In this document: positions 11,230-59,755 of the stretch, one piece after another
Layout: each line of letters starts with the position of its first letter
Position numbering within the stretch: the stretch's first letter is position 1
Source of the DNA: Pikeienuella piscinae
Lineage (GTDB): Bacteria; Pseudomonadota; Alphaproteobacteria; Rhodobacterales; Rhodobacteraceae
Direction of reading: 5' to 3'
DNA: 64,000 nucleotides
NCBI RefSeq assembly: GCF_011044155.1
Contig: NZ_CP049056.1
Location: 744,001-808,000, forward strand
Position numbers and translations under genes: made by a program
The notes under the pieces: model-generated
The model's input: the letters and a program-made list of their open reading frames with translations, nothing else
What the model was told of the DNA's origin: nothing
Database searches by the model: none

Positions 11230-11907
11230 ATGAAGATACTGGTGGCTGAGGATGACCAGCAGGCCGCCGAGTTTATCCGTAAGGGGCTAAGCGAGGAGGG
11301 CCATAACGTCGTGGTCGTTTCCGACGGTCGCGATGCGCTCTCCTATTGCCTCTACAACCCTTGCGACATCATCGTCCTCGACCGGATGATGCCGGGGATG
11401 GACGGGCTTTCCGTCCTGAAGGCGCTGCGCGCCGCCGGGCGTCGAATGCCGGTGATCTTTCTCACCGCCATGGGCGATGTCGACGACCGCGTGGAGGGCT
11501 TGCGCGCGGGCGGCGACGACTATCTTGTCAAGCCCTTTCATTTCTCCGAGCTGACCGCCCGGATCGCGGCGTTGGCCCGCCGCCCCGCCGCCAGCGAGGC
11601 GACGACCAGGCTCCGGGTGCATGATCTGGAACTGGATCTTCTGACCCGCACCGCGAGCCGCGGCGGAGTGACCATCGACCTGCTGGCGAAAGAATTCGCG
11701 CTTCTGGAGATATTGATGCGCAACGCCGGGCGCATCGTCACCCGAACCATGCTGCTCGAACAGGTCTGGGATTTCAGTTTCGATCCCAAGACCTCCGTCG
11801 TCGAGACGCATATGAGCCGGCTCCGCGCGAAGATCGACAAGCCCTTCGAGACGCCGCTGATCCACACCACGCGCAATTCCGGCTATTCGCTTCATGCGCC
11901 CCGGTAA
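11230..11907 (+). CDS. OmpR/PhoB-family response regulator
   Basis: 225-aa response regulator. The receiver has the acidic pair 'AEDD', the phospho-acceptor Asp in 'VLDRMMPGMDGL' and the conserved Lys in 'YLVKPFHF'. The C-terminal winged helix shows 'LLAKEFALLEILMRNAGRIVTR', 'LEQVWD' and 'VETHMSRLRAKID', typical of CzcR/CopR-like regulators. MKILVAEDD at 11230 is preferred over the ATG 12 bp earlier. It overlaps the histidine kinase gene by 14 bp. A TATAGT at 11179-11184 could be its -10 element. Likely targets include the adjacent degP-like gene. Confidence 0.92.
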   Translation: MKILVAEDDQQAAEFIRKGLSEEGHNVVVVSDGRDALSYCLYNPCDIIVLDRMMPGMDGLSVLKALRAAGRRMPVIFLTAMGDVDDRVEGLRAGGDDYLVKPFHFSELTARIAALARRPAASEATTRLRVHDLELDLLTRTASRGGVTIDLLAKEFALLEILMRNAGRIVTRTMLLEQVWDFSFDPKTSVVETHMSRLRAKIDKPFETPLIHTTRNSGYSLHAPR

Positions 11908-13258
11908 TATCCTCTCCGGCGCCGCGTTTCGCGTCGTCGCGCTGTCGCTCTCGGTATTCTGCGTCGTGATGCTGATCGCCGGTTTCGCCATCCTCGAAAT
12001 CGTGCGCGCATCGATGATCAACGACATCCGGTCGAAGATCGTGGAGGAGGTCATTCTCTTCGACGAGATCTACCGGAACGAAGGTCCTTCCGCCCTCTCC
12101 GACGCGATTGACCGGCTCGCCCGATCCCGGATGCCGGCGCAGCCCATCGTCGGGCTCTTCGCCGAGAACGGCGCGCGCCTCGCCGGCGATGTCGAACTGG
12201 CGCCGGACTTCTATGGCTGGGGCACGATCGCCCAGAAGGTGGCCGGGGCGAAAGCCGCGCAGGGCTATCATGTGGAGGTCGTGTCGCTGGCGGGGCGCAA
12301 GGTTGTGGTGGGGCGACGCCTCGACCTCGTCGAAGCGATGGAAAGGACGCTCACAAGGGCGCTGCTGATTGCCGGCGCGGTGGTCATTCTCGTCTCGCTG
12401 ACGATCGGCTATTTCGTCAGCCGCGGCGCCCTCGACAAGCTGGAAAAGATGGCGGCGGTGCTGGAGGACGTCTCGCGCGGCGAAAGCGGCGCGCGGCTGA
12501 AAGTCGGCGCGGGGCGTGATCAGATCGACCGGATCTCGGTGATGATCAACGCGCATCTCGACCGGCTTTCGACGTTGATGGAGACCACGAGGAATTCGAT
12601 CATCGCGGTCGCCCATGACCTCAGGACGCCGCTCAACCGCGCGTTCCTCTCCGTCCAGAAAGCCTCCGACAAGCGGACCGGCGCCGATGAGCGCGAAGCG
12701 GCGCTGAACGCGGCGAGCGCTGAGATTGAAGGGATCGGCGAGACCTTCGAGACGATCCTGCGCATCGCGCGCATCGCATCCTCGGACGATACCGCCGGGT
12801 TCGAACGGGTCTCGGCGACGGCGTTGGTCGAAGAGATCGCGGAGACCTATCAGCCCGTGCTGGAGGAGGCCGGGCGCGAGTTGATCTTCGAAACGCCGCC
12901 GGACGATCCCGCTTGGATCAGCGGCGACCGGCGAATGCTCTTTCAGATGCTGGTGAACCTCGTGGAGAACGCCGCTCGCTACGCGCCCGAGGGAACGCAG
13001 GTGACGCTTGGCGCGCGCCGCGACGATCGGGACGTGCTGATCGAGATAGCCGATCATGGGCCCGGTATTCCAGCAGAGCGGCGCGAAGATGCGGTCAAAC
13101 CCCTCCATCAGCTTTCCGGACTCGGCGAGGCGGGCGGCGCCGGGCTTGGCCTTGCGCTGGTCCGCGCCGTCGCCGACCGTCACCGCGCGAAGCTCCGGCT
13201 CTCGGACAACGCGCCCGGACTCCGCGTCTCGATCCGGTTTCGGGCTGTCGCCGACTGA
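11894..13258 (+). CDS. membrane sensor histidine kinase
   Basis: 454-aa inner-membrane kinase, cognate of the preceding regulator. TM1 is at about residues 13-33 and TM2 at about 155-178 ('LLIAGAVVILVSLTIGYFVS'), bracketing a roughly 120-residue periplasmic sensor domain. HAMP follows, then the H-box 'VAHDLRTPLNRAF' (about residue 238), N-box 'NLVENAARYAPEG', and G-boxes 'DHGPGIPA' and 'GAGLGLALV'. The signal sensed is not evident. The gene order regulator, kinase, DegP-type protease suggests envelope stress, as with CpxRA-degP in enterics. Confidence 0.92.
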   Translation: MRPGNILSGAAFRVVALSLSVFCVVMLIAGFAILEIVRASMINDIRSKIVEEVILFDEIYRNEGPSALSDAIDRLARSRMPAQPIVGLFAENGARLAGDVELAPDFYGWGTIAQKVAGAKAAQGYHVEVVSLAGRKVVVGRRLDLVEAMERTLTRALLIAGAVVILVSLTIGYFVSRGALDKLEKMAAVLEDVSRGESGARLKVGAGRDQIDRISVMINAHLDRLSTLMETTRNSIIAVAHDLRTPLNRAFLSVQKASDKRTGADEREAALNAASAEIEGIGETFETILRIARIASSDDTAGFERVSATALVEEIAETYQPVLEEAGRELIFETPPDDPAWISGDRRMLFQMLVNLVENAARYAPEGTQVTLGARRDDRDVLIEIADHGPGIPAERREDAVKPLHQLSGLGEAGGAGLGLALVRAVADRHRAKLRLSDNAPGLRVSIRFRAVAD

Positions 13259-13269
13259 CCCGCCGGAAA

Positions 13270-13287
13270 TCTTACGAATTCGTAAGA
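13270..13287. promoter_or_regulatory. 18-bp perfect palindrome upstream of degP-like gene
   Basis: TCTTACGAATTCGTAAGA is a perfect palindrome, arms of 9 bp, located 84 bp before the protease start and 12 bp after the kinase stop. Its position suggests an operator, possibly for the neighbouring response regulator, although OmpR-family regulators more often bind direct repeats. Confidence 0.45.
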
Positions 13288-13370
13288 ATCGCGAAACACG
13301 CATGCATGGATCGGCGCCGATATGGCGTTCATGGCCCGTCCCGAGCGGGCCGCCGATCAAGGAAACTGAA

Positions 13371-14837
13371 ATGACATATCACGCAAAGACGCACCGGCCC
13401 CGACCGGCCCGCGCCGGCGCTATCGGGATTGGCGCCTGCGCCGGCCTCGCTGCGGCGCTGCTCTGGTCGCCAGTCGCCAGCGCCGACACCGAACCGCATC
13501 AGGTCGCCAATCTCGTGGAGCGGGTCAGCCCCGCGGTGGTCACGGTTCTTACAACGCAGGAGCGGCAGGTCGCCGCCGGGCGCGGCATGGGCGAGAGCCC
13601 GTTTCCCCCCGGCTCTCCCTTCGACGAATTCTTCAAGCGCTTCCAGCCGCCGCCAGGCATGCGGCGCGGTGACGGCGGCGCGCCGTCGCACGCGCTCGGT
13701 TCCGGTTTCATGATCGGGAGCGACGGCTACATCGTCACCAACAACCATGTCGTCGACAACGCCACGAAAGTGCGGGTGAAGCTCTCCGACGAACGTGAGT
13801 TCGACGCGCAGGTCGTTGGCGTCGACGAGCAGACCGACCTCGCGCTTCTCAAGGTCGACGCGGAAGACCTGCCCTTTCTGAAACTCGGTGACAGCGCCAC
13901 GATGCGGGTCGGCGACGACGTGGTCGCGGTCGGCAATCCGTTCGGCCTCGGCGGAACGGTCACGCGCGGCATAATCTCGGCCAAGGGTCGCGATATCCAC
14001 GCCGGACCCTATGTCGACTTCATCCAGACCGACGCCGCGATCAACCACGGCAATTCGGGCGGACCGTTGTTCAACCTCGAAGGCGAGGTGATCGGCGTCA
14101 ACGCCGCGATCTATTCGCCGTCGGGCGGCTCGGTCGGGGTCGGTTTCGCCATCCCCTCGAACACGGTGAAATTCGTCGTCGCCCAACTGAAGGACGAAGG
14201 CGAAGTGCAGCGCGGCTGGCTTGGCGTCTCCATCCAGGACGTGACGCCCGAAATCGGCCTCGCCGTCGGCATGGAGACGCCGCACGGCGCACTCGTCGCG
14301 CAAGTGCTGGAGGACGCGCCGGCGACCGGAAAGCTGAAGGCGGGCGACGTGATCGTCGGCTTCAACGGTCAGGAAGTCGGCGCCAGCCACGACCTTCCGC
14401 GCCTTGTCGCAGCCGTTCCCGCCAACGAGACCGTCCCGGTCGACATCATCCGTGACGGCGCCGAGAAGACGGTCAAGGTGAAGATCGGCGCGTTGAAGGC
14501 GGAGCGACATGCCGACGCGGGCGAAATCGCGCCCGCTGGCGGCGCCGTCTCAGACCGGCTCGGCGCGACCTTCGCCGCACTGACGCCCGAGACGCGCCAG
14601 CGCCTCAACCTGGAGCCCGACGCCTCAGGCGCCGTCGTCGCGGATCTCGATGCGGACGGGCCTGCGGCGGAGGCCGGGCTTCGGGTCGGCGACCTGATCG
14701 TGCGCGTAGGCGACCAGCCCGTTACATCGCCGAAGCAACTCGAAACCGCTGTCGGCGAGATCAAGAAGGATGCGGCGCTGCTGCAGGTGGAACGCCCTGG
14801 CGGCAGGATCTTTGTCGGCGTGCATCTGAAGGCGTGA
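13371..14837 (+). CDS. DegP/HtrA-type periplasmic serine protease
   Basis: 488-aa Do-family protease/chaperone for envelope protein quality control. It has a signal peptide ending 'SPVASADTE' at about residue 35. The trypsin-like domain has His in 'TNNHVVDNA', Asp in 'DEQTDLALLKV' and Ser in 'HGNSGGPLF'. PDZ1 begins near 'GWLGVSIQDVTPEI' and PDZ2 near 'LGATFAALTPETRQRL', ending 'GGRIFVGVHLKA'. The ATG at 13371 follows AAGGAAACTGAA. It is probably controlled by the two-component system just upstream. Confidence 0.93.
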   Translation: MTYHAKTHRPRPARAGAIGIGACAGLAAALLWSPVASADTEPHQVANLVERVSPAVVTVLTTQERQVAAGRGMGESPFPPGSPFDEFFKRFQPPPGMRRGDGGAPSHALGSGFMIGSDGYIVTNNHVVDNATKVRVKLSDEREFDAQVVGVDEQTDLALLKVDAEDLPFLKLGDSATMRVGDDVVAVGNPFGLGGTVTRGIISAKGRDIHAGPYVDFIQTDAAINHGNSGGPLFNLEGEVIGVNAAIYSPSGGSVGVGFAIPSNTVKFVVAQLKDEGEVQRGWLGVSIQDVTPEIGLAVGMETPHGALVAQVLEDAPATGKLKAGDVIVGFNGQEVGASHDLPRLVAAVPANETVPVDIIRDGAEKTVKVKIGALKAERHADAGEIAPAGGAVSDRLGATFAALTPETRQRLNLEPDASGAVVADLDADGPAAEAGLRVGDLIVRVGDQPVTSPKQLETAVGEIKKDAALLQVERPGGRIFVGVHLKA

Positions 14838-15728: not shown

Positions 15729-16091
15729 ATGGCCCGCGTGATGATCGTGGAGGACGAACCGCATATCGTCGAGAGCCTGACCTTCCTGTTCAGTCGCGAG
15801 GGATTCGAGGTGACCGCGCATGACGATGGCGAGGCGGCGTTCGCGGCGCTCGACGCCGCGCCGCCCGATGTTCTCGTCCTCGACGTCATGCTGCCCGGGC
15901 TGAACGGCTTTGAACTTCTGCGCCGCGTGCGCGCCAAGCCAAATTTGGCGGCGCTGCCGGTTCTGGTGCTGACTGCGAAAGGCCAGCGACGCGACCGCGA
16001 GACCGCCGAAGCCTCGGGCGCCGACCGGTTCATGACCAAGCCGTTCTCGAACGCGGAGCTGATCGCGACGGTCAAGGCGCTCGCGGGATGA
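15729..16091 (+). CDS. receiver-only (CheY-like) response regulator
   Basis: 120-aa single receiver domain with no output domain. 'IVEDEP' gives the acidic pair, 'VLVLDVMLPGLNGFELL' the phospho-acceptor Asp (about residue 54), and 'FMTKPFSNAEL' the conserved Lys. MARVMIVEDEP at 15729 follows a GGGGGGAAACT ribosome site; an ATG at 15711 is in frame but lies inside that site. Its stop overlaps the next start (ATGA), forming a tight three-gene unit with a small membrane protein and a symporter-kinase. It probably acts by protein-protein interaction or in a phosphorelay. Confidence 0.88.
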   Translation: MARVMIVEDEPHIVESLTFLFSREGFEVTAHDDGEAAFAALDAAPPDVLVLDVMLPGLNGFELLRRVRAKPNLAALPVLVLTAKGQRRDRETAEASGADRFMTKPFSNAELIATVKALAG

Positions 16092-16420
16092 CGGCGCCGC
16101 CCCCAGCCGAACCGCCGGGGTCGCCTCCGCCAGAGGATAATCAGACGCTCGCGATGACTGAGGCCGACATGGCCGACAAGGCCGCATTCAAGGCCGAGCG
16201 GACATACGAAGCCGCCATGGCGCTGCCGATCGCCGGTCTCGCGCTGTTCACGCCGCCGCTGATTGGGCTTTTCGCCTCCGACGCCGGCGTCTTCGGCGTT
16301 CCGATGATCGTCGCCTACATGTTCGCGGCCTGGGTGGCGCTGGTCCTCTGCGCCTATCTGCTCGCGCGCCGGATCAAGCGCGCAAACCCGGACCGCATGG
16401 GAAGCGAGGGCGACGCATGA
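16088..16420 (+). CDS. small two-helix membrane protein, putative partner of the symporter-kinase
   Basis: 110 aa: a Pro-rich N-terminus, a charged helix (ADMADKAAFKAERTYEAAMAL), then two membrane helices ('LPIAGLALFTPPLIGLFAS' and 'VPMIVAYMFAAWVALVLCAYLLA') and a basic tail. The layout resembles small subunits encoded beside sodium:solute symporters (DUF485/DUF4212-like, for example the ActP partner), but I cannot confirm homology by eye. It overlaps both neighbours by 4 bp, so it is probably made in step with the kinase. Confidence 0.65.
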   Translation: MTAPPPAEPPGSPPPEDNQTLAMTEADMADKAAFKAERTYEAAMALPIAGLALFTPPLIGLFASDAGVFGVPMIVAYMFAAWVALVLCAYLLARRIKRANPDRMGSEGDA

Positions 16421-19089
16421 CTTTCGGCGTCGACATGATCCTTCCCGTGTCGTTCGGCTATGTCGCGCTGCTTTTTCTACTCGCCTGGTGGGTGGACCGG
16501 CGGGCGGCGCGGGGCGGCGTCGCTTGGCTGCGCTCGCCGCTGACCTACACTCTTTCACTCTCGGTCTACTGCACCGCCTGGACGTTCTACGGCGCAGTCG
16601 GCGCGGCGACGCGCAAGGGGCTGGAATTCGCCCCCATCTACCTCGGGCCGACGCTGGTCTTCATCGGCTGGTGGTGGCTGATCCGCAAGCTCGTCCGCAT
16701 CGGGCGGACGCACCGGATCACGTCGATCGCCGACATGATATCCTCTCGCTACGGCAAGTCCCGCGCCCTCGCCGCCTTCGCGACGGTTGTCGCTGTCACC
16801 GCGACGACGCCTTATATCGCGCTTCAACTTCAGTCGCTGACGCTCAGTTACGAAGTCATTACCGGTGGCGATCCGAGCCAGGACAGGAAGATCGCATTCG
16901 TCGCCGCGCTCGGGCTCGGGCTCTTCACGATCCTGTTCGGCACCCGCTCGCTCGATGAGAACGAGCGTCACTACGGCGTCGTCGCCGCGATCGCGATGGA
17001 AGCGGTGGTGAAGCTCGCGGCGGTGATCGCGGTCGGCCTCTATGCGGTCTTTTCGGTCGCCGGCGGCGTCGAGGCGACCTTCGCCGGGACCACGGCGGAG
17101 AGCCTCAATCTCGACCAGACCTTTGGCCCGCGCTGGATGACGCTGCTGTTTCTTTCGGCCGCCGCGATCATCTGCCTGCCTCGCCAGTTTCAGGTCACCG
17201 TGGTCGAGAACACCGATGAACGGCATCTGCTGACCGCGTCGTGGATGTTTCCGACATACATGCTGCTGATGTCGCTCTTCATCCTGCCGATCGCCGCAAT
17301 CGGCGTCGGCGCCGCGCCCGCCGGCGCGAACCCGGATCTCTTCGTCCTGACGCTGCCGCTGAACCGCGGCGACAACGAACTGGCGATCTTCGCCTTCATC
17401 GGCGGGCTCTCCGCCGCGACCTCGATGGTCATCGTCTCCACCATCGCGCTTTCCACCATGGTCTCAAACCATATCGTCGCGCCGCTCTCGGTCCGGCTGA
17501 TGAGCGAGGCGGGGTCGGAACGTTCGGGCGACGTCAAGAGCGCGCTTCTCACCTCCCGCCGTGTGGCGATCCTGGGCATACTCTCGCTCGGGTACGCCTA
17601 TTTCAGCGTCGCCGGACGGTCGGACGCGCTGGCGGCGACCGGGCTCATCGCGTTCTGCGGCGTCGCGCAATTCCTGCCGGCGCTGCTGGCGGGCGTTTTC
17701 TGGCGCGGCGCGACGCGGACCGGCGCGGCGGCCGGGTTGACGCTCGGCTTCGCGCTGTGGCTCTGGACGCTGTTTCTGCCCAGCTTTGGCGGCGATGTCG
17801 CGCTGCCCGCCTCGGTGCTGGCGGACGGACCGTTTGGAATCGGCCTCCTGAGACCCTACGCGCTCTTCGGCTCCCCCGGCGCGGACCCGCTGGTTCACGC
17901 CACGGTCTGGAGCCTCGGAGTCAACGCCACGGCGCTGGTCCTTGTCAGCCTGATGAGCCGGATGAGCCCACTGGAACGCCTTCAGGGCGCGCTATTCGTA
18001 GATGTTTTCCGGGCCGAACCCCTCCGCGCTTTCAGTCTCGTGCGCCGGTCCGCCGCCTCTTCAGATCTCTATATCCTCGCGCAGCGCATCCTCGGCACCA
18101 GCGAAGCGACGGCCGTATTTCGCGGCGCGGCGGCCCGGCAGGGAAAAGCGACCGGCCTGCCCGACCCGACCCCGTTCTTCATCTCCGGGCTGGAGCGGCG
18201 ACTCGCAGGTTCGGTCGGCGCCGCGTCCGCTCACGCGATGGTCAACCGCATCGCCGGGGGCGAGAAGATCTCCATGGCGGAGCTGGTCGACATGGCTGAC
18301 GAGAACGCCAAACTGCGCCGCGCGACCGAGGCGCTGCGCGCCAAATCCGCCGAAGCCGAACAGACCGCGCGCCAGCTCAGGGCCGCCAACGAGCAGCTCA
18401 AGACGCTCGATGCGCGCAAGGACGAGTTTCTCAGCCAGGTGAGCCACGAGTTACGCACGCCGATGACCTCCGTGCGCTCCTTCGCCGAGATTCTGGAACG
18501 CAACCCGGGTCTCGACGCCGCGCAACGGGGCCGCTTCGCCGGGATTATCCAGACTGAAAGCCTGCGCCTCACCCGCCTTCTGGACGAAATCCGCGACCTG
18601 AGCTTCCTCGACGATCCGCTTCCGGCCGAGCGCCGGCCGATCGACGCGGAGGCGGCGCTCGCCTCAGCCATCGAAATCTCCCTCGCGCCGCACGAGAAAA
18701 CCAGCGTCAATCTGAAATGGGAAAATCGTGCCGGCGACGCGGTGATCGAGGCCGACCCGGATCGCCTCACCCAAGTATTCATCAATCTGATCTCGAACGC
18801 CATCATTCACAACGACAAGCCGGTCGCCGAGATCGAAATCCGCACCGCCAAGGACGGGCGCGAGTACCGCGTCGATGTCATCGATAACGGCCCCGGAGTC
18901 GCACCCAGGGATCGTGACCGGATATTCGAGACCTTCTTTCGCCGTTCGACCCGGGGATCGGCCGGTCTCGGCCTGCCGATCTGCCGGAAGTTCATGACGC
19001 TTTTCAAAGGCTCGATCGAACTCGCGCCGGAATCCGGCGGAGGCGCGCACTTCATCCTCAGGGCGCCGCTGGCGGGCACACGCGGCTGA
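16417..19089 (+). CDS. sodium:solute symporter-domain sensor histidine kinase
   Basis: 890-aa fusion. Residues about 1-510 form a sodium:solute-symporter-like domain of 12-13 helices ('CTAWTFYGAVGAAT', 'ITSIADMISSRYGKSRALA', 'RQFQVTVVEN'). Residues about 535-620 resemble the STAC linker found in CbrA-type kinases ('YLLAQRILG'-like start, 'LERRLAGSVGAASAHAMV'). A coiled coil (about 620-665) precedes the HisKA H-box 'QVSHELRTPMTSVRSF' and a HATPase with 'NLISNAIIHNDK', 'DNGPGVAP' and 'GLGLPICRKF'. It should couple solute binding or transport to phosphorylation of the upstream receiver protein. No PAS domain is evident, unlike Pseudomonas CbrA. Confidence 0.88.
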   Translation: MTFGVDMILPVSFGYVALLFLLAWWVDRRAARGGVAWLRSPLTYTLSLSVYCTAWTFYGAVGAATRKGLEFAPIYLGPTLVFIGWWWLIRKLVRIGRTHRITSIADMISSRYGKSRALAAFATVVAVTATTPYIALQLQSLTLSYEVITGGDPSQDRKIAFVAALGLGLFTILFGTRSLDENERHYGVVAAIAMEAVVKLAAVIAVGLYAVFSVAGGVEATFAGTTAESLNLDQTFGPRWMTLLFLSAAAIICLPRQFQVTVVENTDERHLLTASWMFPTYMLLMSLFILPIAAIGVGAAPAGANPDLFVLTLPLNRGDNELAIFAFIGGLSAATSMVIVSTIALSTMVSNHIVAPLSVRLMSEAGSERSGDVKSALLTSRRVAILGILSLGYAYFSVAGRSDALAATGLIAFCGVAQFLPALLAGVFWRGATRTGAAAGLTLGFALWLWTLFLPSFGGDVALPASVLADGPFGIGLLRPYALFGSPGADPLVHATVWSLGVNATALVLVSLMSRMSPLERLQGALFVDVFRAEPLRAFSLVRRSAASSDLYILAQRILGTSEATAVFRGAAARQGKATGLPDPTPFFISGLERRLAGSVGAASAHAMVNRIAGGEKISMAELVDMADENAKLRRATEALRAKSAEAEQTARQLRAANEQLKTLDARKDEFLSQVSHELRTPMTSVRSFAEILERNPGLDAAQRGRFAGIIQTESLRLTRLLDEIRDLSFLDDPLPAERRPIDAEAALASAIEISLAPHEKTSVNLKWENRAGDAVIEADPDRLTQVFINLISNAIIHNDKPVAEIEIRTAKDGREYRVDVIDNGPGVAPRDRDRIFETFFRRSTRGSAGLGLPICRKFMTLFKGSIELAPESGGGAHFILRAPLAGTRG

Positions 19090-22427: not shown

Positions 22428-22556
22428 AGCGACGTTACGTCTGGCCCGGCGGGAGCCCGCACCGACGGCTATGTTGGCGCGCGGTGCGAACACACCACCG
22501 GCCGCGAACGCGCGCTCCTGAAGACCGTTGTAAACACGCGCACCCGTCGATCACAA

Positions 22557-22574
22557 ATGAGGGACGTACCTCAT
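22557..22574. promoter_or_regulatory. candidate LacI-type operator
   Basis: ATGAGGGACGTACCTCAT is an 18-bp palindrome with a central CG and one mismatched pair, the form typical of LacI-family operators. It lies in the 250-bp gap before the binding-protein gene, 7 bp upstream of a -35-like TTTACA, close to a co-directional LacI-family gene. Confidence 0.55.
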
Positions 22575-22581
22575 AAATCCG

Positions 22582-22611
22582 TTTACAGTCTTGGCGCCCC
22601 CGCCCTATCCT
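22582..22611 (+). promoter_or_regulatory. candidate promoter of the sugar ABC operon
   Basis: TTTACA (22582-22587), an 18-bp spacer, and TATCCT (22606-22611) give a sigma-70-like promoter 66 bp before the binding-protein start. The palindrome at 22557-22574 sits just upstream. Nothing else was recognised in 22428-22556 beyond a TGTAAAC half-site near 22529. Confidence 0.4.
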
Positions 22612-22677
22612 CATTCACAAGCTCAAAAGCCGGGGGATTCGAACCGGCCACATCGACCTCTGGGAGGGGGATCAGCC

Positions 22678-50857: not shown

Positions 50858-52807
50858 TCAATCCCTGTTCTTCCGGTTCTCGATCAGATCCTCGACCACG
50901 GACGGATCGGCGAGGGTCGAAATATCGCCGAGGGATTCGTGCTCGTTCTCCGCAATCTTTCGCAGGATCCGCCGCATAATCTTGCCGGAGCGGGTCTTCG
51001 GCAGACCGGGTGCCCATTGCAGCAGGTCCGGCTTGGCGATCGGGCCGATCTCCTTGCGCACCCAGTCGCTCAGCTCCTTACGAAGCTCATCCGACGGCTC
51101 GTCTCCGGCCATCAACGTGACATAGGCGTAAATGCCCTGCCCCTTCAGATCGTGAGGATAGCCGACAACGGCGGCTTCCGCGACCTTTGGATGGGCGACC
51201 AGCGCGCTCTCGACCTCGGCCGTGCCCATCCGGTGGCCGGAGACGTTGATCACGTCGTCGACGCGCCCGGTGATCCAGTAATAGCCGTCCTGGTCCCGCC
51301 GGCAGCCGTCGCCAGAGAAATAGTATCCCTTGAAGTCGGAAAAATATGTCGAGACATAGCGGTCATGATCGCCATAGACAGTGCGGAACATGCCAGGCCA
51401 TGCGTTCTTCATGCACAGGACGCCTTCCGCTTCGACGGTCTCGATCTCCTTGCCGGTTTGCGGATCGACCACCGCCGGCTCGACGCCGAAGAAAGGCCGC
51501 GTCGCGGAGCCGGGCTTGGTGGCGATGGCGCCGGGCAGCGCGCTGATCAGGATGCCGCCGTTCTCGGTCTGCCACCAGGTGTCCACGATTGGCAACCGCT
51601 CCTTGCCGACGACCCGATTATACCAGAGCCAGGCTTCGGGGTTGATCGGTTCGCCGACAGAGCCGAGAAGCCGGAGCGAGGAAAGGTCCGCCGCCTCGAC
51701 GAACTCCTCTCCCTGCCCCATCAGCGCGCGAATTGCTGTTGGCGCGGTGTAGAACTGGTTCACCTTGTGCTTTTCGCAGACCCGCCAGAAGCGGCTGGCG
51801 TCGGGATAGGTCGGAACCCCCTCGAACATCAGCGTCGTCGCGCCGTTCGCGAGCGGCCCATAGACGATATAGCTGTGGCCCGTGACCCAACCCACATCGG
51901 CGGTGCACCAGTAGACGTCGCCATCGTGATAATCGAAGACGAGTTGGTGAGTCATCGCCGCGTGAAGAAGATAGCCGCCCGTCGTGTGCACCACGCCCTT
52001 CGGCCGCCCGGTGGAACCGGAGGTGTAAAGGATGAAGAGAGGATCTTCGGCGTTCATCTCCTCGACTGGGCAGTCGGCGGAAACCTTCGCCATTTCCGCC
52101 TTCACATCGACATCCCGGCCATCGACCCAAGTGGTCTGCCCGCCGGTGTGCTTGACGACGAGGCATTTGACCTTGTCGGAACAGTGCAACAGCGCCTCGT
52201 CGGCGTTCGCTTTCAGCGCCGTGCGCCTGCCGCCGCGCGGGGCTTCGTCGGCGGTGATCAACAGCTTGGCGGCGCTGTCGTTGATCCGGTTGGCGAGCGC
52301 GTCGGGGCTGAATCCGGCGAAAACCACGGAATGGATCGCGCCGATCCGCGCGCAGGCGAGCATCGCGTAGGCCGCTTCGGGGATCATCGGCAGATAGAGA
52401 ACGACCCGGTCACCCTTGACGACCCCCTGCCCCTTCAGGACGTTCGCCATGCGGCAGACTTTCTCGTGCAACTGGCGATATGTGATCTTCGCATCTACCG
52501 CGGGATCGTCGCTTTCCCACAGGATCGCGGTCTGGTCGGCGCGGGTCGCGAGATGCCGGTCGACGCAATTGGCGCAGACATTGAGCGCGCCGTCCTCGAA
52601 CCAGCGGATGGAGACGTCCGGATGCGCGAAGGTCGCGTTTCGCACCTTGGTGAAGGGCTTGATCCAGTCGAGGCGCGCACGCGCCTCGTCGCCCCAGAAC
52701 CCGTCAGGGTCCTTGATGGAGCGCGCGTACATCTCTTCATACTGCGCGGCGTTCACATGCGCCCGCGCGACTGTCTCGGCCGCGGGTTCGTAAGTCTTGT
52801 CGGTCAT
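50858..52807 (-). CDS. acs: acetyl-CoA synthetase (AMP-forming)
   Basis: 649-aa adenylate-forming enzyme converting acetate (and to some degree propionate) to the acyl-CoA. '[19 protein letters not shown]' is the P-loop, '[15 protein letters not shown]' the acyl pocket with the conserved Trp, '[34 protein letters not shown]' the hinge, and '[15 protein letters not shown]' the acetylatable Lys. ATG at 52807 after GGAAGGAG; longer in-frame sequence upstream is not coding. Last gene of the minus-strand binding-protein/liv cluster, 37 bp after livF. Confidence 0.95.
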
Positions 52808-52844: not shown

Positions 52845-53624
52845 TCAGAGCGCCAGATACTCCTGTCTGAGTTCGGCGTTGTCGAGCACCTCCTGCGAAG
52901 AGCCGTCGAACACCACCTGTCCCATGTCGAGGATGATCGCCCGGCTCGCGAGATGCAACGCGGCGATTGCATTCTGTTCGACGATGATCGTCGTCATGCC
53001 CAGCGACTTGATGTGCTCCAGCGTTCGCTCGATCTCCTGCACGATCACCGGCGCGAGCCCTTCATAGGGCTCGTCCAGAAGAAGAAGCTTCACATCGCGC
53101 GCCAGCGTCCGGCCGATGGCGAGCATCTGCTGCTCACCGCCGGAAAGCGTCACGCCTTCCTGCTTCCTTCGCTCGCCAAGACGCGGGAACAGTTCGTAGA
53201 TCTTATCCAGCGGCCAGCCTTTCGGCGGCGCGATCTGCGCCAGTTGCAGATTCTCCTCGACCGTAAGGCCGGAGATGATGCGCCGGTCCTCCGGCACCAG
53301 CCCGACGCCGAGCCCGGAGGCCTGATAGGCTCTCATCTCGTGGAGCGGATGGCCGTCGAGCCAGATCTCGCCCTCCTGGACCTGTGGCGCGTCGACCCGC
53401 GCGATTGCGCGCAGGGTGGAGGTCTTGCCGGCGCCGTTCCGGCCGAGCAGCGCGACGATCTCGCCCTCGTTCACGTCGAAGCTGACGCCCTGCACGATAT
53501 AGCTTTCGCCATAATAGGCGTGGACGTTCTGGGCGGAGAAATAGGCCGGCGCCGCGCCTGCCTGGACCGGATTGCTCACGTCATTCCCCCATGTGGCCTG
53601 TTTTCCATCGTCCAGCGGGCTCAT
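52845..53624 (-). CDS. livF: branched-chain-type ABC transporter ATPase LivF
   Basis: 259 aa. A 30-residue N-terminal extension ([19 protein letters not shown]) precedes the ATPase: Walker A '[11 protein letters not shown]', '[17 protein letters not shown]' (typical LivF), signature '[15 protein letters not shown]', Walker B '[13 protein letters not shown]'. The ATG at 53624 follows GGGAGG. In the livF-type family but here next to acs, so the transported ligand may be a short-chain acid or amide rather than an amino acid (inference). Confidence 0.88.
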
Positions 53625-53649: not shown

Positions 53650-54405
53650 TCAAAGGTGCGCGCCGCCGAGATAGGCTTCCTGCACCTTCGGGTTGCCCTT
53701 GATGTTCTCGGGCAGGTCCTCGACGATCGGCGCGCCCTGCGCCAGCACGGTGATGCGGTCGGCGAGACTGAAGACGACATGCATGTCGTGCTCTATCACC
53801 ACCATGGTCACGCCGGTCTGCGCGATCTCCTTCAGCAGATCGATGGTGGCGTTGGTGTCGGCCCGCGCCATTCCCGCGGTCGGCTCGTCCAGAAGCAGGA
53901 GCTTCGGCTTCTGCACCAGCGCCATAGCCAGCTCCAGCCGCCGCTTGTCGCCACGGCTGAGGCTGTTCGCGATCTCGTGTCGCTTTGCGCCCATGCCGAC
54001 GGAGACAAGCGCCTCCTCGGCGGCTTCGCGCATCTCCCGCTCGCCCTGAAGGGGCGACCAGAGCGAAGGTCGGAACGCGCCGTCGCGCTTGGCGAAGGCG
54101 GGGATCATCACGTTCTCCAGCAGCGTGAGGTCGCCGAATATCTCCGGCGTCTGGAAAACCCGCGTCACACCGGCCTGATTGATCTGGTGCGGCTTCAGCC
54201 CGATCAACGATACGCCGTCGAAAATAACCGAGCCGGTGTCCGGAATCAGCCTGCCGACGAAACAGTTCAGGAGCGTCGATTTGCCCGCCCCGTTCGGCCC
54301 GATGATCGCGTGGACCGTGCTCGCCTCGACATCGAGATTCACGTCGTTCAGCGCCTGCAATCCGCCGAAGCGCTTGTTGACGTTCTGGACCGCCAGAATG
54401 CCCAT
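53650..54405 (-). CDS. livG: branched-chain-type ABC transporter ATPase LivG
   Basis: 251-aa ATPase: Walker A 'GPNGAGKSTLL', 'RVFQTPEIFGDLTLLENVM', an LSRGD version of the signature ('LSRGDKRRLELAMAL'), Walker B 'LLLLDEPTAGMAR', and 'VIEHDMHVVFSLADRI'. Lies 12 bp after livM. Forms the second half of the ATPase pair with LivF. Confidence 0.9.
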   Translation of the reverse strand: MGILAVQNVNKRFGGLQALNDVNLDVEASTVHAIIGPNGAGKSTLLNCFVGRLIPDTGSVIFDGVSLIGLKPHQINQAGVTRVFQTPEIFGDLTLLENVMIPAFAKRDGAFRPSLWSPLQGEREMREAAEEALVSVGMGAKRHEIANSLSRGDKRRLELAMALVQKPKLLLLDEPTAGMARADTNATIDLLKEIAQTGVTMVVIEHDMHVVFSLADRITVLAQGAPIVEDLPENIKGNPKVQEAYLGGAHL

Positions 54406-54417
54406 CGTCTCTCTCCC

Positions 54418-55611
54418 CTACTCGGCCGGCGTCGAGGCGCGCCGGCTCGCGCGATCACCGCCCTTGCGCCGATAATTCGCGATCCGGTTGAAGCCTTCCA
54501 TCAGCCCGCCGGGCAAGAAGATCACCACCAGCATGAAGATCATGCCGAGCGTCAGCTGCCAGCCCTTGCCCACGAAGAAATGAAGAACCCAGGTGATCCC
54601 GTCGGCCAGTTCGGCCGGCATGAAGCTGAACCAGCCCTCAAGTACGTTGTCGTTGATTTTCGAGAAGATGTTCTCGAAATACTTGATCACGCCGGCGCCC
54701 AGCACCGGCCCCAGCAACGTGCCGGCGCCGCCGAGAATGGTCATCAGCACCACCTCGCCCGAGGCTGTCCACTGCATCCGCTCGGGGCCGACAAGCGGGT
54801 CGGTGCAGGCCATCAGCCCACCCGCAAGTCCGGCGTACATGCCGGAGATGACGAAGGCGGCCAGCGTATAGGGCCGGGTGTTGACGCCGGTGTAGTTCAG
54901 CCGGTTCTGATTGGTCTTGACCGCACGCAGCATCATCCCGAACGGCGAGCGGAAGATCCGAAGGGCCAGGTAGAACGCGATCAAAAGGACGATCGCGCAA
55001 AAATAGTAACCCACGTTGAACTGAAAATTCCAACCGCCGATCTGGAGCACCTCGGTCGCGTTCATGTTCAGCCCGAAGAGATTGGTCGTCGGGAGCGAGC
55101 CGGTCGTGTTCGGCCCATCCAGCACGCGCGGGTCGTTCAGCGCGAGTTGAAGCCCGGTCTCGCCATTGGTGATCGGCGTCAACACCGAATAGGCGAGATT
55201 GTAGCTCATCTGCGCGAAGGCGAGCGTCAGGATCGAGAAGTAGATGCCCGACCGGCGGAGCGAGACGAAACCGATGGCGAGCGCGAAGAGCCCGGAGACG
55301 AGCACCGCGAGAACGAGCCCCGGCAGAATATTCATGCTCAACAGCTTGAACATCCAGACCGCGGAATAGGAGCCGAGACCAAGGAAGGCGGCGTGTCCAA
55401 AGGAGAGATACCCGGTCAACCCAAAGAGAATGTTGAAGCCGATCGCGAAGATCCCGTAGATCGCGAAGCGTTGCATCAGGTCGGGGTAACCCGCGTTGAA
55501 CAGCGCCAGCGGGCTCTGATCCGGGAACGGATTCAGGATGAAGGGCGCCAAAAGCGAGATCAGCGCGACCAGCCCGAGAAGCTGAAGGTCTTTTCTGTCG
55601 AGGCCGAACAT
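54418..55611 (-). CDS. livM: branched-chain-type ABC transporter permease LivM
   Basis: 397-aa permease with about ten helices. Signature region '[35 protein letters not shown]'-like at about residues 50-85 and '[41 protein letters not shown]' toward the C-terminus. A periplasmic insertion at about residues 140-180 ('[19 protein letters not shown]') is longer than in amino-acid LivM. 3 bp after livH. Confidence 0.9.
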
Positions 55612-56759: not shown

Positions 56760-58106
56760 TCAGGCGCCCGAGTTGCACTTGCCGAGTTCGCCGCCGGCGA
56801 ACATCGGGTGATCCGGCGCATATTCGACCTGCGCACGCGGCGTGACCTCGACGATCTCAAGCGCGTCGTACTCGTTCTCGGGCTCCTGCTTGCCCTGCAC
56901 CACCATCACGTCCTTGAAGCATTGGTGGTCGTCGGCGCGATAGAGCGTCGGCCCGTTCCCGAGGCCGTCGAACTCGAATCCTTCCAGCGCCTCGGCGATG
57001 CCGCAGGGGTTGAACGTGCCGGCCCGGGCCGCCGCATCGGCGTAGAGCAGCGTCTGCGCGTAACAGGTCTGCGCGGCCTGCGACGGCGGGAAGCCGTATT
57101 TGGTGCCGAAGGACTTCACGAAGGCCTTGGTGCCCTCGTCCTGAAGCGTCCAGGACCAGTTGCTGGAGCCGAACACGCCTTTCACCGCCTCGCCCGCGCC
57201 CTTCGCCATCAGCTCCGAGTAAAGCGGCACGACGATCTCGAAGTTCTTGCCGTTGACCTGTTTGTCGCGAAGGCCGAACTGAACCGACTGCGTCAGCGAG
57301 TTCACCATGTTGCCGCCGTAGTGGTTCAGCATCAGCACATCGGCGCCCGAGTTCAGAACCGGCGCGATATAGGAGGAGAAGTCCGTGGTGGCGAGCGGCG
57401 TCAGCACGTTGTTCACCGTCTCCCAGCCGATCGCCTCGGTCGCGGCCTGCATCGATTCCTGCTGCGTCCAGCCCCAGGTGTAATCCGCGGTCAGGTGATA
57501 GACCTTGCGATCGGCGCCGTAATTGTTCTTCAGCACCGGCGCCAGCGCGGCGGCGGACATGTAGGCGTTGAAGAAGTGCCGGAAGCCGTTGGCCTTCTTG
57601 TCCTTGCCGGTGGTGTCGTTGGAGTGCGTGAGCCCGGCCATGAAGATGATCCCAGCCTCCTGGCAGAGGCTCTGGACCGCAACCGCGACACCGGAGGACG
57701 AACCACCGGAGATCATCAGCACGCCGTCCTTCTCGATCATCGATTTGGCGGAAGCGCGCGCGGCGTCGGACTTGGTCTGGGTGTCGCCCGACACGTAGGC
57801 GACCTTCTTGCCGAGGATTCCCTCGCCCTTCAGCTCTTGCGAGGAGAATGTCGAGATCATCCCGCCATCGCCCTCGCCATTGAGATGTTCGACGGCGAGT
57901 TGGAAGGCGCGGAGCTCATCCAGTCCCTCATCGGCGTAGGGGCCGGTCTGCGGCACGTTGAAACCCAGCGTGACGGTGTCGCCGGTCGGCTCGTTAAGAT
58001 ACGCGGCGCGCGCCTTGCTGGTGAAGATCGTCGGCATCGCGAGCCCGGCGCCGAGCGCGGCGCCCCCCTTCAGCAAGCCGCGACGACTGAAATTGAACTG
58101 GGACAT
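56760..58106 (-). CDS. Tat-exported ABC substrate-binding protein (LivK/urea-type family)
   Basis: 448-aa periplasmic binding protein with a twin-arginine signal, MSQFNFSRRGLLKGGAALGAGLAMP, cleaved near 'KARA'. The Peripla_BP_6 fold shows 'LGFNVPQTGPYADEGLDELRAFQLAVEHLNG', 'MISGGSSSGVAVAVQSLCQEAGIIFMAGLTHSNDTT', and 'VYHLTADYTWGWTQQESM'. First gene of the minus-strand cluster running through livHMGF to acs; divergent from the ScfR-type regulator. Ligand unknown; the neighbourhood points to a compound that yields acetate or acetyl-CoA. Confidence 0.88.
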   Translation of the reverse strand: MSQFNFSRRGLLKGGAALGAGLAMPTIFTSKARAAYLNEPTGDTVTLGFNVPQTGPYADEGLDELRAFQLAVEHLNGEGDGGMISTFSSQELKGEGILGKKVAYVSGDTQTKSDAARASAKSMIEKDGVLMISGGSSSGVAVAVQSLCQEAGIIFMAGLTHSNDTTGKDKKANGFRHFFNAYMSAAALAPVLKNNYGADRKVYHLTADYTWGWTQQESMQAATEAIGWETVNNVLTPLATTDFSSYIAPVLNSGADVLMLNHYGGNMVNSLTQSVQFGLRDKQVNGKNFEIVVPLYSELMAKGAGEAVKGVFGSSNWSWTLQDEGTKAFVKSFGTKYGFPPSQAAQTCYAQTLLYADAAARAGTFNPCGIAEALEGFEFDGLGNGPTLYRADDHQCFKDVMVVQGKQEPENEYDALEIVEVTPRAQVEYAPDHPMFAGGELGKCNSGA

Positions 58107-58202: not shown

Positions 58203-58283
58203 TTTGCAATAAGCAATTGCATAACAAGGATAATCTTGTAAATTTCTGGATCACCCTATATGTTGATTTGTAAATTATTTACA
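58203..58283. promoter_or_regulatory. cluster of TTGYAA-type operator half-sites in divergent intergenic region
   Basis: TTTGCAAT (58203-58210), GCAATTGC (58213-58220), TTGTAAAT (58236-58243), and the palindrome TGTAAATTATTTACA (58269-58283). The published motif for ScfR-family regulators RamB and PccR contains TTTGCAAA, so these are credible binding sites for the adjacent ScfR-type protein. The last site overlaps the leader of its own gene, which suggests autoregulation. Confidence 0.55.
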
Positions 58284-58297
58284 TAGATGGCAAAAAA

Positions 58298-59755
58298 ATG
58301 GCGGCAGGGCATGGACTTCCCGCAGCGCAGCGAAGGATCGCCGGACTGCGGATCAGGGAGCGGCGGCGCGAACTCGGGCTGAAGCAGAACGAACTTGCGG
58401 CCCGTGTCGGCGTCTCGGCGGCCTATCTGAACCTGATCGAGCGCAACAAGCGGGGAATCGGCGGCGCGCTGCTGGCGCGGATCGGGCGAGAGCTGCATCT
58501 GACGCTCGACCAGCTCGATGGCATGGCTGAGCGCCGGCTGCGCGAGGAACTGAACGAGGTGGCGGCCGAGCCGGAGCTCGCGGATGCCGCGTCCGGCGGT
58601 CCCCCGGACGAGTTCATCGCGCGGTTTCCGGGCTGGGCGCGGGCGACCGCGCTTCTCCATCGGCGCTGGCGCGCGGCGGCGGCTGAGGCGGAGGCGATGG
58701 CCGACCGACTGGCGCATGATCCGGCGCTCGGCGCGGCGATCCACGAGATGCTCACAGAGATCACCGCGCTCCGCTCGACCGCGGAGATCCTGACCGAGGG
58801 GCGTGAGGTGTCCGCTCCGCAGCGGCGCCGCTTCGAGCAGATCATCTTCGAGCAGTCATCGCGGCTCGCCGCCACCGGGGCTGGGCTCGCAGCCTATTTC
58901 GACGGCGCGGCCGAAGCCCGCCGCCGCCCCGCCCCCGTCCGCGCGGCCGAAGAGGCGCTGGAGCGCGCCCCCGACCCCGGCGACGCGATCGAACGGCTGG
59001 CGGCCAAAACGCGCGCCAGATTCGCCGACGGCGATATCGAGGAGCGTTTACGAAGGCTGACGCCCCGGCCGCCGGAGATCGCGCCCGAATCCGGGCGGGC
59101 GGAGCGACTGAGCGCGCTCGCCCGCGCCCATGCGGCGCAGGCGCACCAGCACGCGCTTTTCGACCTGGCGCAGTCGCTCGCCACCGCCGGCGAGGCGGAT
59201 ACGGACGAAGTGCTCGCGCTGGTCGAGGCGGAGCTGGCGCAGCGCCTCGCCGACGCGATCCTCTCGCATCCCGACCAGTTCCTCGCGCTCGGCGCCCGGC
59301 TCGGCTGGGAAATCGGCGCGCTCACCCGCGCGCTCGACGGCGATGCGGGGCTGGTGATGCGAAGAATCGCCTGTCTCGGCGGCAAGGGCGCGCCGCGCGC
59401 CGCGCACGTCGCCGTCGACGCCTCCGGCCGGGTGCTGGCGCGGCGCGGCGCACCCGATCTTCTGCCGCGCGGTCGGCGACTCGACTGCCCGGTCTGGCCG
59501 GCGCACCGTGCGGGCGCCGGCGCGCCCCTCGCCCTCCCGCTCCGCCATCCGGACGGCGCCCGAATCCTCGCCGTGGCGGTGACGCGGGTTGGCGGCATGG
59601 CCACTGACATGCTGGTTCTCGACTCCGAGGCGGCGCGACAGACCGCCTATGCCGGTGCGCTCGACGGGGCGGCGGAAGGGGTCGGCCCGGACTGCCGGAT
59701 ATGCGCGCATCGCGATTGTCCCTCGCGGCGGGAGGCGGCGGTGGTTCAGACCTGA
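58298..59755 (+). CDS. ScfR-type (short-chain fatty acyl-CoA) transcriptional regulator
   Basis: 485-aa regulator: XRE helix-turn-helix ('LRIRERRRELGLKQNELAARVGVSAAYLNLIERNKRGIG', about residues 16-55), a long helical middle, and a C-terminal domain ending in a Cys cluster 'CRICAHRDCPSRRE'. This order matches RamB/PccR-type proteins that sense short-chain acyl-CoA. An IrrE-like HExxH motif is not seen. Divergent from the binding-protein/liv/acs cluster, its likely target. ATG 58298 chosen; the ribosome site is poor, and the ATG at 58287 is out of frame. Confidence 0.8.
   Translation: MAAGHGLPAAQRRIAGLRIRERRRELGLKQNELAARVGVSAAYLNLIERNKRGIGGALLARIGRELHLTLDQLDGMAERRLREELNEVAAEPELADAASGGPPDEFIARFPGWARATALLHRRWRAAAAEAEAMADRLAHDPALGAAIHEMLTEITALRSTAEILTEGREVSAPQRRRFEQIIFEQSSRLAATGAGLAAYFDGAAEARRRPAPVRAAEEALERAPDPGDAIERLAAKTRARFADGDIEERLRRLTPRPPEIAPESGRAERLSALARAHAAQAHQHALFDLAQSLATAGEADTDEVLALVEAELAQRLADAILSHPDQFLALGARLGWEIGALTRALDGDAGLVMRRIACLGGKGAPRAAHVAVDASGRVLARRGAPDLLPRGRRLDCPVWPAHRAGAGAPLALPLRHPDGARILAVAVTRVGGMATDMLVLDSEAARQTAYAGALDGAAEGVGPDCRICAHRDCPSRREAAVVQT

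Follow-up and report, generated by a model that had tools for sequence, protein, structure and literature searches.

What does a response regulator act on if it consists of a receiver domain only and shares its operon with a membrane-bound sensor histidine kinase? This question is raised by a locus of the alphaproteobacterium Pikeienuella piscinae (assembly GCF_011044155.1, contig NZ_CP049056.1, positions 744,001 to 808,000), a stretch of 64,000 nucleotides that is called the window here and to which coordinates refer unless stated otherwise. In its operon, a receiver gene is followed by the genes of a small membrane protein and of a kinase of the SLC5-STAC type (together the triad). An initial annotation of the window had left the downstream target of this system unknown; a strong candidate is encoded in the same window, at 58298-59755 beside livKHMGF-acs. 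It is an XRE/ScfR transcription factor with an embedded DHp (dimerization and histidine phosphotransfer) domain, hereafter ScfR-DHp, and we are largely confident that the receiver acts on this protein. The phosphorelay that had been offered with a "perhaps" is retained as the best reading: we regard it as moderately probable that a split relay leads from a histidine of the kinase via the receiver aspartate to a histidine of the regulator and tunes acetate genes. The elements of this proposal are:

15729..16091, plus strand: REC, receiver-only response regulator of 120 amino acids; Pfam Response_reg, ATG start, acceptor Asp52
16088..16420, plus strand: small two-helix membrane protein of 110 amino acids with an ATGA overlap at each end; CbrX analogue by position and hairpin layout
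16417..19089, plus strand: SLC5-STAC sensor histidine kinase of 890 amino acids, non-hybrid; CbrA match, HisKA and HATPase_c
18367..18618, plus strand: DHp region of the kinase, with the His677 codon at 18445-18447; matched by the ScfR query with 35% identity
58298..59755, plus strand: ScfR-DHp, XRE/ScfR transcription factor with embedded DHp, 485 amino acids; HTH_3 and ScfRs above the Pfam cut-offs, His149 codon at 58742-58744

Association of the regulator with the kinase system

The loci compared comprise the window, 40 loci of the same order (Rhodobacterales), picked by hand from kinase matches with the aim of a spread over genera, and 20 loci of other orders. At least four of the 40 (G064, G152, G157, G183) also surfaced in the search with the small protein. 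As small-protein matches were the source of the 20 other-order loci, their 20/20 is no test. In 54 of these 61 loci one further gene family lies nearby, an XRE regulator that has the ScfRs C-terminal domain in the members tested. In 52 of the 54 the ScfR-DHp gene starts 2-3.1 kb ahead of the kinase on the same strand, just before the receiver; the two exceptions are placed 6.3 kb before the kinase (L143) and after the kinase on the other strand (L148). For the same-order loci, tblastn found the regulator nearby in 36/40 and a profile added one more (L091 in G104), while the remaining three genomes have it elsewhere. Kinase and regulator lie apart yet are both present in the window genome, G019, G148 and G042. 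In P. piscinae the ortholog search located ScfR-DHp at C1:802304-803734, corresponding to window 58298-59755 and 39 kb from the kinase, and the same ScfR query also finds the kinase of the window through its DHp domain (E=5e-4). Thus, both halves of the system are found in the window.

Named GTDB genomes were also sampled with the regulator as starting point, taking the best 80 of 587 candidates; these include Devosia, Nisaea, Tistlia, many Rhodobacteraceae and metagenome-assembled genomes (MAGs) labelled Rubrivivax, Lautropia and Burkholderiales. Five named loci duplicate genomes already sampled, and distinct counts are hence given next to raw counts below. Linkage was counted over the 76 named loci with at least 5.5 kb of downstream sequence, and the whole triad follows ScfR-DHp in 70 of them. 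The last ScfR match is less than 400 bases from the receiver in 60/70, at most 1.1 kb in nine more and 2 kb in L360. Among the six exceptions, L281, L282, L294 and L324 are without the triad and L284 and L285 have the receiver only; the kinase is encoded elsewhere in five of the six genomes and was not found in G484 (a 2.7-Mb record). No nearer relatives were found than the genomes of L281 and L282, whose kinases are 81-82% identical. In L275, L284 and L285 the receiver and ScfR genes are neighbours while the kinase gene is absent from the locus. Two genomes, G195 and G482 (L275, L146, L284, L365), have two such receiver genes, one adjoining ScfR-DHp and the other adjoining the kinase.

Co-occurrence was scored in 289 genomes of the class. 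The non-hybrid kinase class was defined by an open frame of less than 1,060 amino acids, longer ones being presumably hybrid, and the best 4-5 regulator candidates per genome were scored; G249 and G244 were rescored with all candidates, G280, G324 and G425 were kept at the best 4-5. Full-length ScfR-DHp is present in 34 of the 39 genomes with a non-hybrid kinase versus 1 of the 250 without (Fisher p about 1e-37, uncorrected for kinship), and this sole case (G257) is an incomplete record in which the kinase is cut by the contig end. None of the 26 class genomes having only hybrid-length SLC5 kinases carries ScfR-DHp, and G354, G451 and G458, with both kinds of kinase, carry it. In four genomes without the kinase no full-length DHp-bearing regulator was found.

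Properties and origin of the regulator DHp domain

The window protein carries HTH_3 (39.7 bits, cut-off 23) and ScfRs (29.7 bits, cut-off 24), with the DHp (HisKA) domain lying between them; helices are predicted in its structural model at residues 142-166 and 173-209. No ATPase domain was reported in it, and the IrrE-like M78 domain was not reported at 1e-5, a domain that reaches 56.1 bits (cut-off 22) in the regulator of L148. Pfam HisKA is above its cut-off of 26.9 bits in L148 (33.1) and below it in L136 (13.2). Cys397, Cys466, Cys469 and Cys474 are invariant among 55 regulators, in agreement with a putative 4Fe-4S site, and the fold matches PrpR of Mycobacterium tuberculosis. Due to this fold and the four invariant cysteines, sensing of acyl-CoA and of an iron-sulphur cluster is likely, as has been reported for RamB and PrpR (PMC10370305).

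Residue counts were made in 131 loci (126 distinct) that, out of 161 examined, had all three proteins above the score cut-offs. The phospho-acceptor histidine is kept in 128/131 (123/126 distinct) despite an identity of only 24-39% between the regulators and the window protein. The proline at H+5, found in 131/131 kinases, is present in 0/131 regulators. At H+4, where HisKA proteins have their phosphatase residue, regulators have Ser, Thr or Asn in 128/131, mostly Ser (78/131). The kept histidine, the lost proline and the lack of an ATPase domain together fit a phosphotransfer or docking module without kinase activity. By homology and by its conserved histidine, this second histidine domain is a candidate docking site for the receiver.

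The DHp domain of the regulator is most similar to that of the SLC5 kinases. In hhalign the ScfR and kinase DHp segments matched with E=7.8e-19, and 11 other segment pairs reached at most 2% probability. The kinase-DHp profile matches 55/55 regulators at E<=1e-3, the best of 110 reversed or shuffled decoys having 0.8. Among the 19 HisKA domains of the own genome that of the SLC5 kinase is closest to the regulator DHp (85 vs 62), and the same holds for G376, where 30 of 47 HisKA domains were tested (166 vs 86). A tree of 87 DHp sequences (24 regulators, 24 SLC5 kinases and 39 other HisKA of the own genome and G376; 64 alignment columns) places the regulators in one clade (100/99), within a clade common only to the SLC5 kinases (99/95) and apart from the 39 others; the branching order inside the joint clade is unsure. 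A single capture of the DHp domain from the SLC5 kinase family would be the simplest account. At the specificity positions numbered after HK853 of PDB entry 4jau (H+8, +11, +15, +34, +37), kinase and regulator of one locus share 2.4/5 residues in the mean. In the own genome the SLC5 kinase agrees at 3/5 and the other 13 readable HisKA at no more than 1/5; in G376 the values are 5/5 for the SLC5 kinase and 3/5 for the next best among 27 readable. These positions are supportive, yet too few to carry weight. That a single receiver can dock to kinase and regulator alike is argued most strongly by the descent of their DHp domains from a common ancestor.

Receiver, kinase and small protein

The receiver gene and the small gene, and the small gene and the kinase gene, are joined by ATGA overlaps in the open reading frames (ORFs) of the window, which bears out the initial description of one overlapping operon of receiver-only regulator, small protein and symporter-kinase fusion. 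In 41/41 loci (window and same-order loci) a receiver gene precedes the kinase gene and a small hydrophobic ORF separates the two, and in 22/41 the receiver and small genes overlap by four bases, counted manually with starts as chosen by script. Conserved co-occurrence, named at the outset as a check, was found as well: a profile search detected receiver, small protein and SLC5 kinase in 40/40 same-order loci, always with the receiver first. The SLC5 half was found in 191/195 genomes of the order. The triad is an old and conserved system of Alphaproteobacteria that also occurs in a few records labelled Betaproteobacteria. Among the MAGs with the system (L288, L289, L300, L308, L356), four are labelled Betaproteobacteria (LivK 35-36% identical to that of the window) and one Gammaproteobacteria (67%), which suggests transfer or mislabelled bins.

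Response_reg, with 98.1 bits over residues 4-115 of 120, is the single Pfam domain of REC, so that the partner indeed lacks an output domain, as first annotated. Among 31 sequences Asp9, Asp52 and Lys104 never vary and Thr82 hardly varies. The separate receiver thus keeps an intact acceptor site, as a His-Asp-His phosphorelay needs.

The N-terminal 620 amino acids of the kinase match CbrA in the PDB (10ed_A, E=2e-74), and a profile of 57 kinases aligns to 10ed_A over residues 7-590 with E=3.6e-108. By our own reading of the boundary, an alignment up to residue 590, the end of the SLC5-STAC construct, would take in STAC. Lys199 of the window kinase, aligned with Lys196 of CbrA at the Na2 site, is invariant in the 57 kinases, and so are His677 and the N, G1 and G2 residues. 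The Pfam scan reported HisKA and HATPase_c in the kinase and did not report PF00474 (SSF) or Response_reg, and the protein is thus not a hybrid; a PAS domain between STAC and DHp had no match at E<=1. The AlphaFold model has a pLDDT (predicted local distance difference test) of 83.7 with low confidence at residues 617-651, and Foldseek retrieved kinase cores of the HK853 type and the SGLT, SMCT and NIS transporters with it. With SLC5, STAC and DHp/CA parts recognizable in its sequence, the sensor is an unremarkable SLC5-STAC kinase.

The small protein was detected in 126/195 same-order genomes by single-sequence search and in 37/289 class genomes by profile. Judged from the sequence it has two helices; P57, F79 and W82 are invariant in 21 sequences, and most relatives have a basic stretch ahead of the first helix. 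The window protein stays below every Pfam and NCBIfam cut-off (best DUF3311, E=0.0088), and 21 family members gave weak library matches, with DUF6611 in 14 (best E=0.00045) and TMEM_230_134 as best single match (E=0.00014). A DUF4212 symporter subunit was considered for the small protein and dropped, the own genome having no match. Against the PDB its profile gave seven matches at E<=10, all unrelated and none a 10ed chain (best OTOP2, E=0.044); a direct comparison with the CbrX sequence was not part of this search. Of the suggested likeness to symporter accessory subunits, the precedent of CbrX ahead of an SLC5 kinase in Pseudomonas stands, and a sequence kinship with CbrX or a named symporter subunit was not found. 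In its position, the small protein corresponds to CbrX. According to the CbrA report (PMC13022988), CbrX co-purifies with the SLC5 domain of CbrA, CbrX is dispensable for growth on histidine, and Lys196 of CbrA is in the Na2 site; in PMC6591292 the clearest role of CbrX is translational coupling to CbrA. The co-purification makes a complex of small protein and kinase plausible, and by analogy with CbrX the SLC5 domain is the most likely binding site of the small protein. Its role is possibly modest, since CbrX is dispensable on histidine and has its clearest role in translational coupling.

Predicted operator and the liv-acs genes

The regulator gene is divergent from a gene cluster of liv type that ends with acs:

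58236..58274, plus strand: predicted ScfR-type operator, two direct YTGTAAA boxes 32 bp apart; a weaker third box 32 bp further, at 58204
56760..58106, minus strand: livK, periplasmic binding protein, divergent from scfR; Peripla_BP_6, 245 bits
55615..56646, minus strand: livH-type permease; BPD_transp_2
54418..55611, minus strand: livM-type permease; BPD_transp_2
53650..54405, minus strand: livG-type ATPase; ABC_tran and BCA_ABC_TP_C
52845..53567, minus strand: livF-type ATPase, start approximate; ABC_tran
50858..52807, minus strand: acs, acetate--CoA ligase; TIGR02188 equivalog, 1034 bits (cut-off 725)
22550..22620, minus strand: candidate second operator of three imperfect boxes repeated every 32 bp, ahead of the gene (start 22678) of a sugar-type ABC binding protein

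The acs gene follows 37 bases after livF and is apparently the last gene of the liv operon. A box pair was counted where two direct YTGTAAA boxes with at most one mismatch each stood exactly 32 bp apart. It occurs in 96/117 livK-scfR intergenic regions, 0.32 being expected from letter shuffles, and in 92/113 distinct regions, 54/113 being free of mismatches. In the 4.37-Mb genome the sole perfect pair is the livK-scfR one; one single-mismatch pair was found at 22582-22620, and the reversed control pattern gave none. The second candidate operator, 3.5 kb after the kinase, may be a second target or due to chance. The tested operator of RamB likewise has two boxes with an 18-bp spacer, and 32 bp separate the repeats as counted in the printed oligonucleotide (PMC10370305). 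Based on the box pattern and gene order, the regulator probably controls acetate use via livKHMGF-acs.

Proposed relay and rival explanations

We propose that the SLC5-STAC kinase is a sensor, and perhaps also a carrier, of a small solute, with the small protein lying against its transporter domain like CbrX. The kinase would autophosphorylate at His677 and the phosphoryl group would move to Asp52 of the receiver. The receiver, which would not bind DNA itself, would then dock on the DHp bundle of ScfR-DHp and most likely phosphorylate His149. The ATPase-less regulator would bind the paired YTGTAAA boxes, merge the phospho-signal with the expected acyl-CoA and iron-sulphur input, and act on livKHMGF-acs and on its own gene. 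The terminal acceptor would in this way be a histidine in a one-component transcription factor, replacing the usual response regulator. That the receiver's action consists of phosphotransfer is an assumption towards which we lean, and transfer to His149 is favoured because the histidine is kept in 128/131 regulators. To the wider claim we give about even weight, namely that the final histidine-phosphorylated member of the relay is a one-component DNA-binding metabolic sensor: an ancestral ScfR protein would have taken up a kinase DHp domain once, one receiver would serve both DHp domains, and membrane-solute and acyl-CoA inputs would meet in one protein.

Several observations weigh against this proposal. 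In the window, 39 kb separate kinase and regulator, no operator pair is found upstream of the kinase operon, and the DHp domain of the regulator was not reported by Pfam at 1e-5. The acs gene is present, right beyond livF, in just 14/42 eligible named livK loci. Mutual information between receiver and DHp (131 loci, effective 82) gave top pairs that follow lineage and no canonical interface. ScfR-DHp is missing from 5 of the 39 genomes with a non-hybrid kinase (G244, G249, G280, G324, G425); in four of the five genomes (loci L262-L265) the gene of a long protein, probably of exonuclease type, stands between receiver and kinase, and in G249 a triad (L149) lies beside a FixJ/LuxR-type response regulator, which fits an ordinary two-component view there. 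G006 (L261) has kinase and receiver with neither ScfR-DHp nor the small protein, and its receiver operon holds a long protein. Finally, the histidine is replaced by Tyr in L065 and by Phe in L269 and L270, so that transfer cannot be universal. The long operon neighbour in L261-L265 has 690-900 amino acids, is RNase_T exonuclease-like in both members tested (L261, L263) and was considered as an alternative output. In L269 and L270 (genomes G234 and G360), the two loci with Phe, acs-liv, the regulator and the triad are found in a single stretch, offering a natural test of docking versus transfer.

These three regulators are the reason why docking without transfer is the main rival, although we consider it rather unlikely. 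In that case the phosphorylated receiver would bind the DHp bundle of ScfR-DHp and alter DNA binding or the oligomer state, comparable to the action of DivK on the DHp domain of DivL, and the histidine would serve packing or as an occasional acceptor. Adjacency, domain origin and co-occurrence would be the same as for a relay, and the loss of the H+5 proline from all 131 regulators is equally in line with it; what speaks for transfer is that the histidine is kept in 128/131 (123/126 distinct) regulators at 24-39% identity, which exceeds the need of packing. We think it quite improbable that the DHp domain is a brake, acting as phosphatase or sink for the receiver or as a mere dimeriser, while the receiver has its output elsewhere in the manner of CheY, for instance on a FliM/FliN-C-like protein. 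Such an output is hinted at by a gene family downstream of the kinase in 31/41 same-order loci (28/61 on rerun), whose sole member tested (L094) has FliMN_C, and a phosphatase function by Ser, Thr or Asn at H+4 in 128/131 regulators. However, the residue is mostly Ser (78/131), the FliMN_C-type family is found in 0/20 other-order loci and not beside the window kinase, the one part of the own genome searched for it, and ScfR-DHp accompanies the system in other orders too and in MAGs labelled Betaproteobacteria. The family sits about 2.7 kb after the kinase start (L061-L100), and a C-ring-like partner of a CheY-like receiver would be curious.

Very improbable, in our judgement, is a kinase that mainly phosphorylates an ordinary DNA-binding response regulator elsewhere, with the receiver-only protein as competitor or buffer. 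CbrA, CrbS and RpuS are described to pair with DNA-binding regulators (PMC9100948, PMC7918813), and in L149, without ScfR-DHp, the FixJ/LuxR-type regulator lies 2.9 kb after the kinase start. On the other hand, a receiver-only gene is present in 61/61 loci, but a separate ORF with receiver and output parts (180-560 amino acids, within 6 kb) in just 2/61, L149 and the window, and the 229-amino-acid one of the window is 5.2 kb off beside another kinase. The absence of ScfR-DHp from the 26 hybrid-only class genomes and its presence in G354, G451 and G458, which hold both kinase kinds, also argue against it.

Comparison with known systems

The triad resembles CbrX-CbrA-CbrB in having an SLC5-STAC kinase of the same family with the conserved Na2-site lysine and a small two-helix protein overlapping the kinase start. 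It differs in its receiver-only partner in place of the sigma-54 activator CbrB, in that no PAS domain was detected and in the proposed ScfR-DHp output; unlike in CbrA/CbrB, no DNA-binding regulator stands beside the kinase, the nearest in the window being 5.2 kb away by another kinase. CrbS/CrbR (MxtR/ErdR) and RpuS/RpuR are likewise SLC5-STAC kinase systems of acetate or pyruvate use, and acs is described as the classical CrbR target (PMC9100948, PMC7918813). While CrbS is a hybrid with its own receiver and a LuxR-type regulator, the receiver is here a separate gene, with no LuxR-type partner linked in the window. ScfR-DHp shares HTH and ScfRs domains, the four invariant cysteines and the PrpR fold with its family (RamB, PccR, MccR/PrpR), and the two boxes 32 bp apart, known here from the sequence pattern, with RamB of Paracoccus denitrificans. 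Unlike other ScfR proteins it has a DHp domain inserted between HTH and ScfRs; in ordinary ScfR proteins of these genomes the profile match covers the flanks of this segment and jumps over the segment itself.

In the phosphorelays of Spo0F-Spo0B and ChpT and in DivK-DivL, the partner of a single receiver is a DHp protein that resembles a kinase but lacks kinase activity. There the DHp protein passes the phosphate to a response regulator or modulates a kinase, whereas here the domain is fused to a DNA-binding domain. For a His-Asp-His-Asp relay with a terminal response regulator, neither gene set shows a recurring terminal receiver protein among its neighbours; such a protein might be encoded elsewhere.

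The sensor family itself is known, and the novelty would be a split relay with a ScfR regulator carrying a DHp domain at its end. No ScfR protein with a DHp domain was found described in the literature searched, an earlier notice in Carter and Alber 2015 being possible. Pden_1785 of P. denitrificans is a probable ortholog, as judged from a remark on its gene context: it is said to lie with a two-component system (PMC10370305), and this is the sole literature remark found that touches the system. Our proposal names a target for an orphan receiver-only protein and suggests that SLC5-STAC kinases and ScfR proteins, known separately as acetate regulators, belong here to one pathway. The DHp domain would be a clean case of a transcription factor capturing a kinase domain and a natural experiment on how receivers recognize DHp domains. 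If true, the relay would have an unusual ending for a bacterial signalling chain.

Upstream of the triad, window 11894-13258 and 13056-14837 hold a second histidine kinase with an adjoining response regulator of 229 amino acids, and an ORF resembling a DegP/HtrA protease by eye; both are ordinary-looking.

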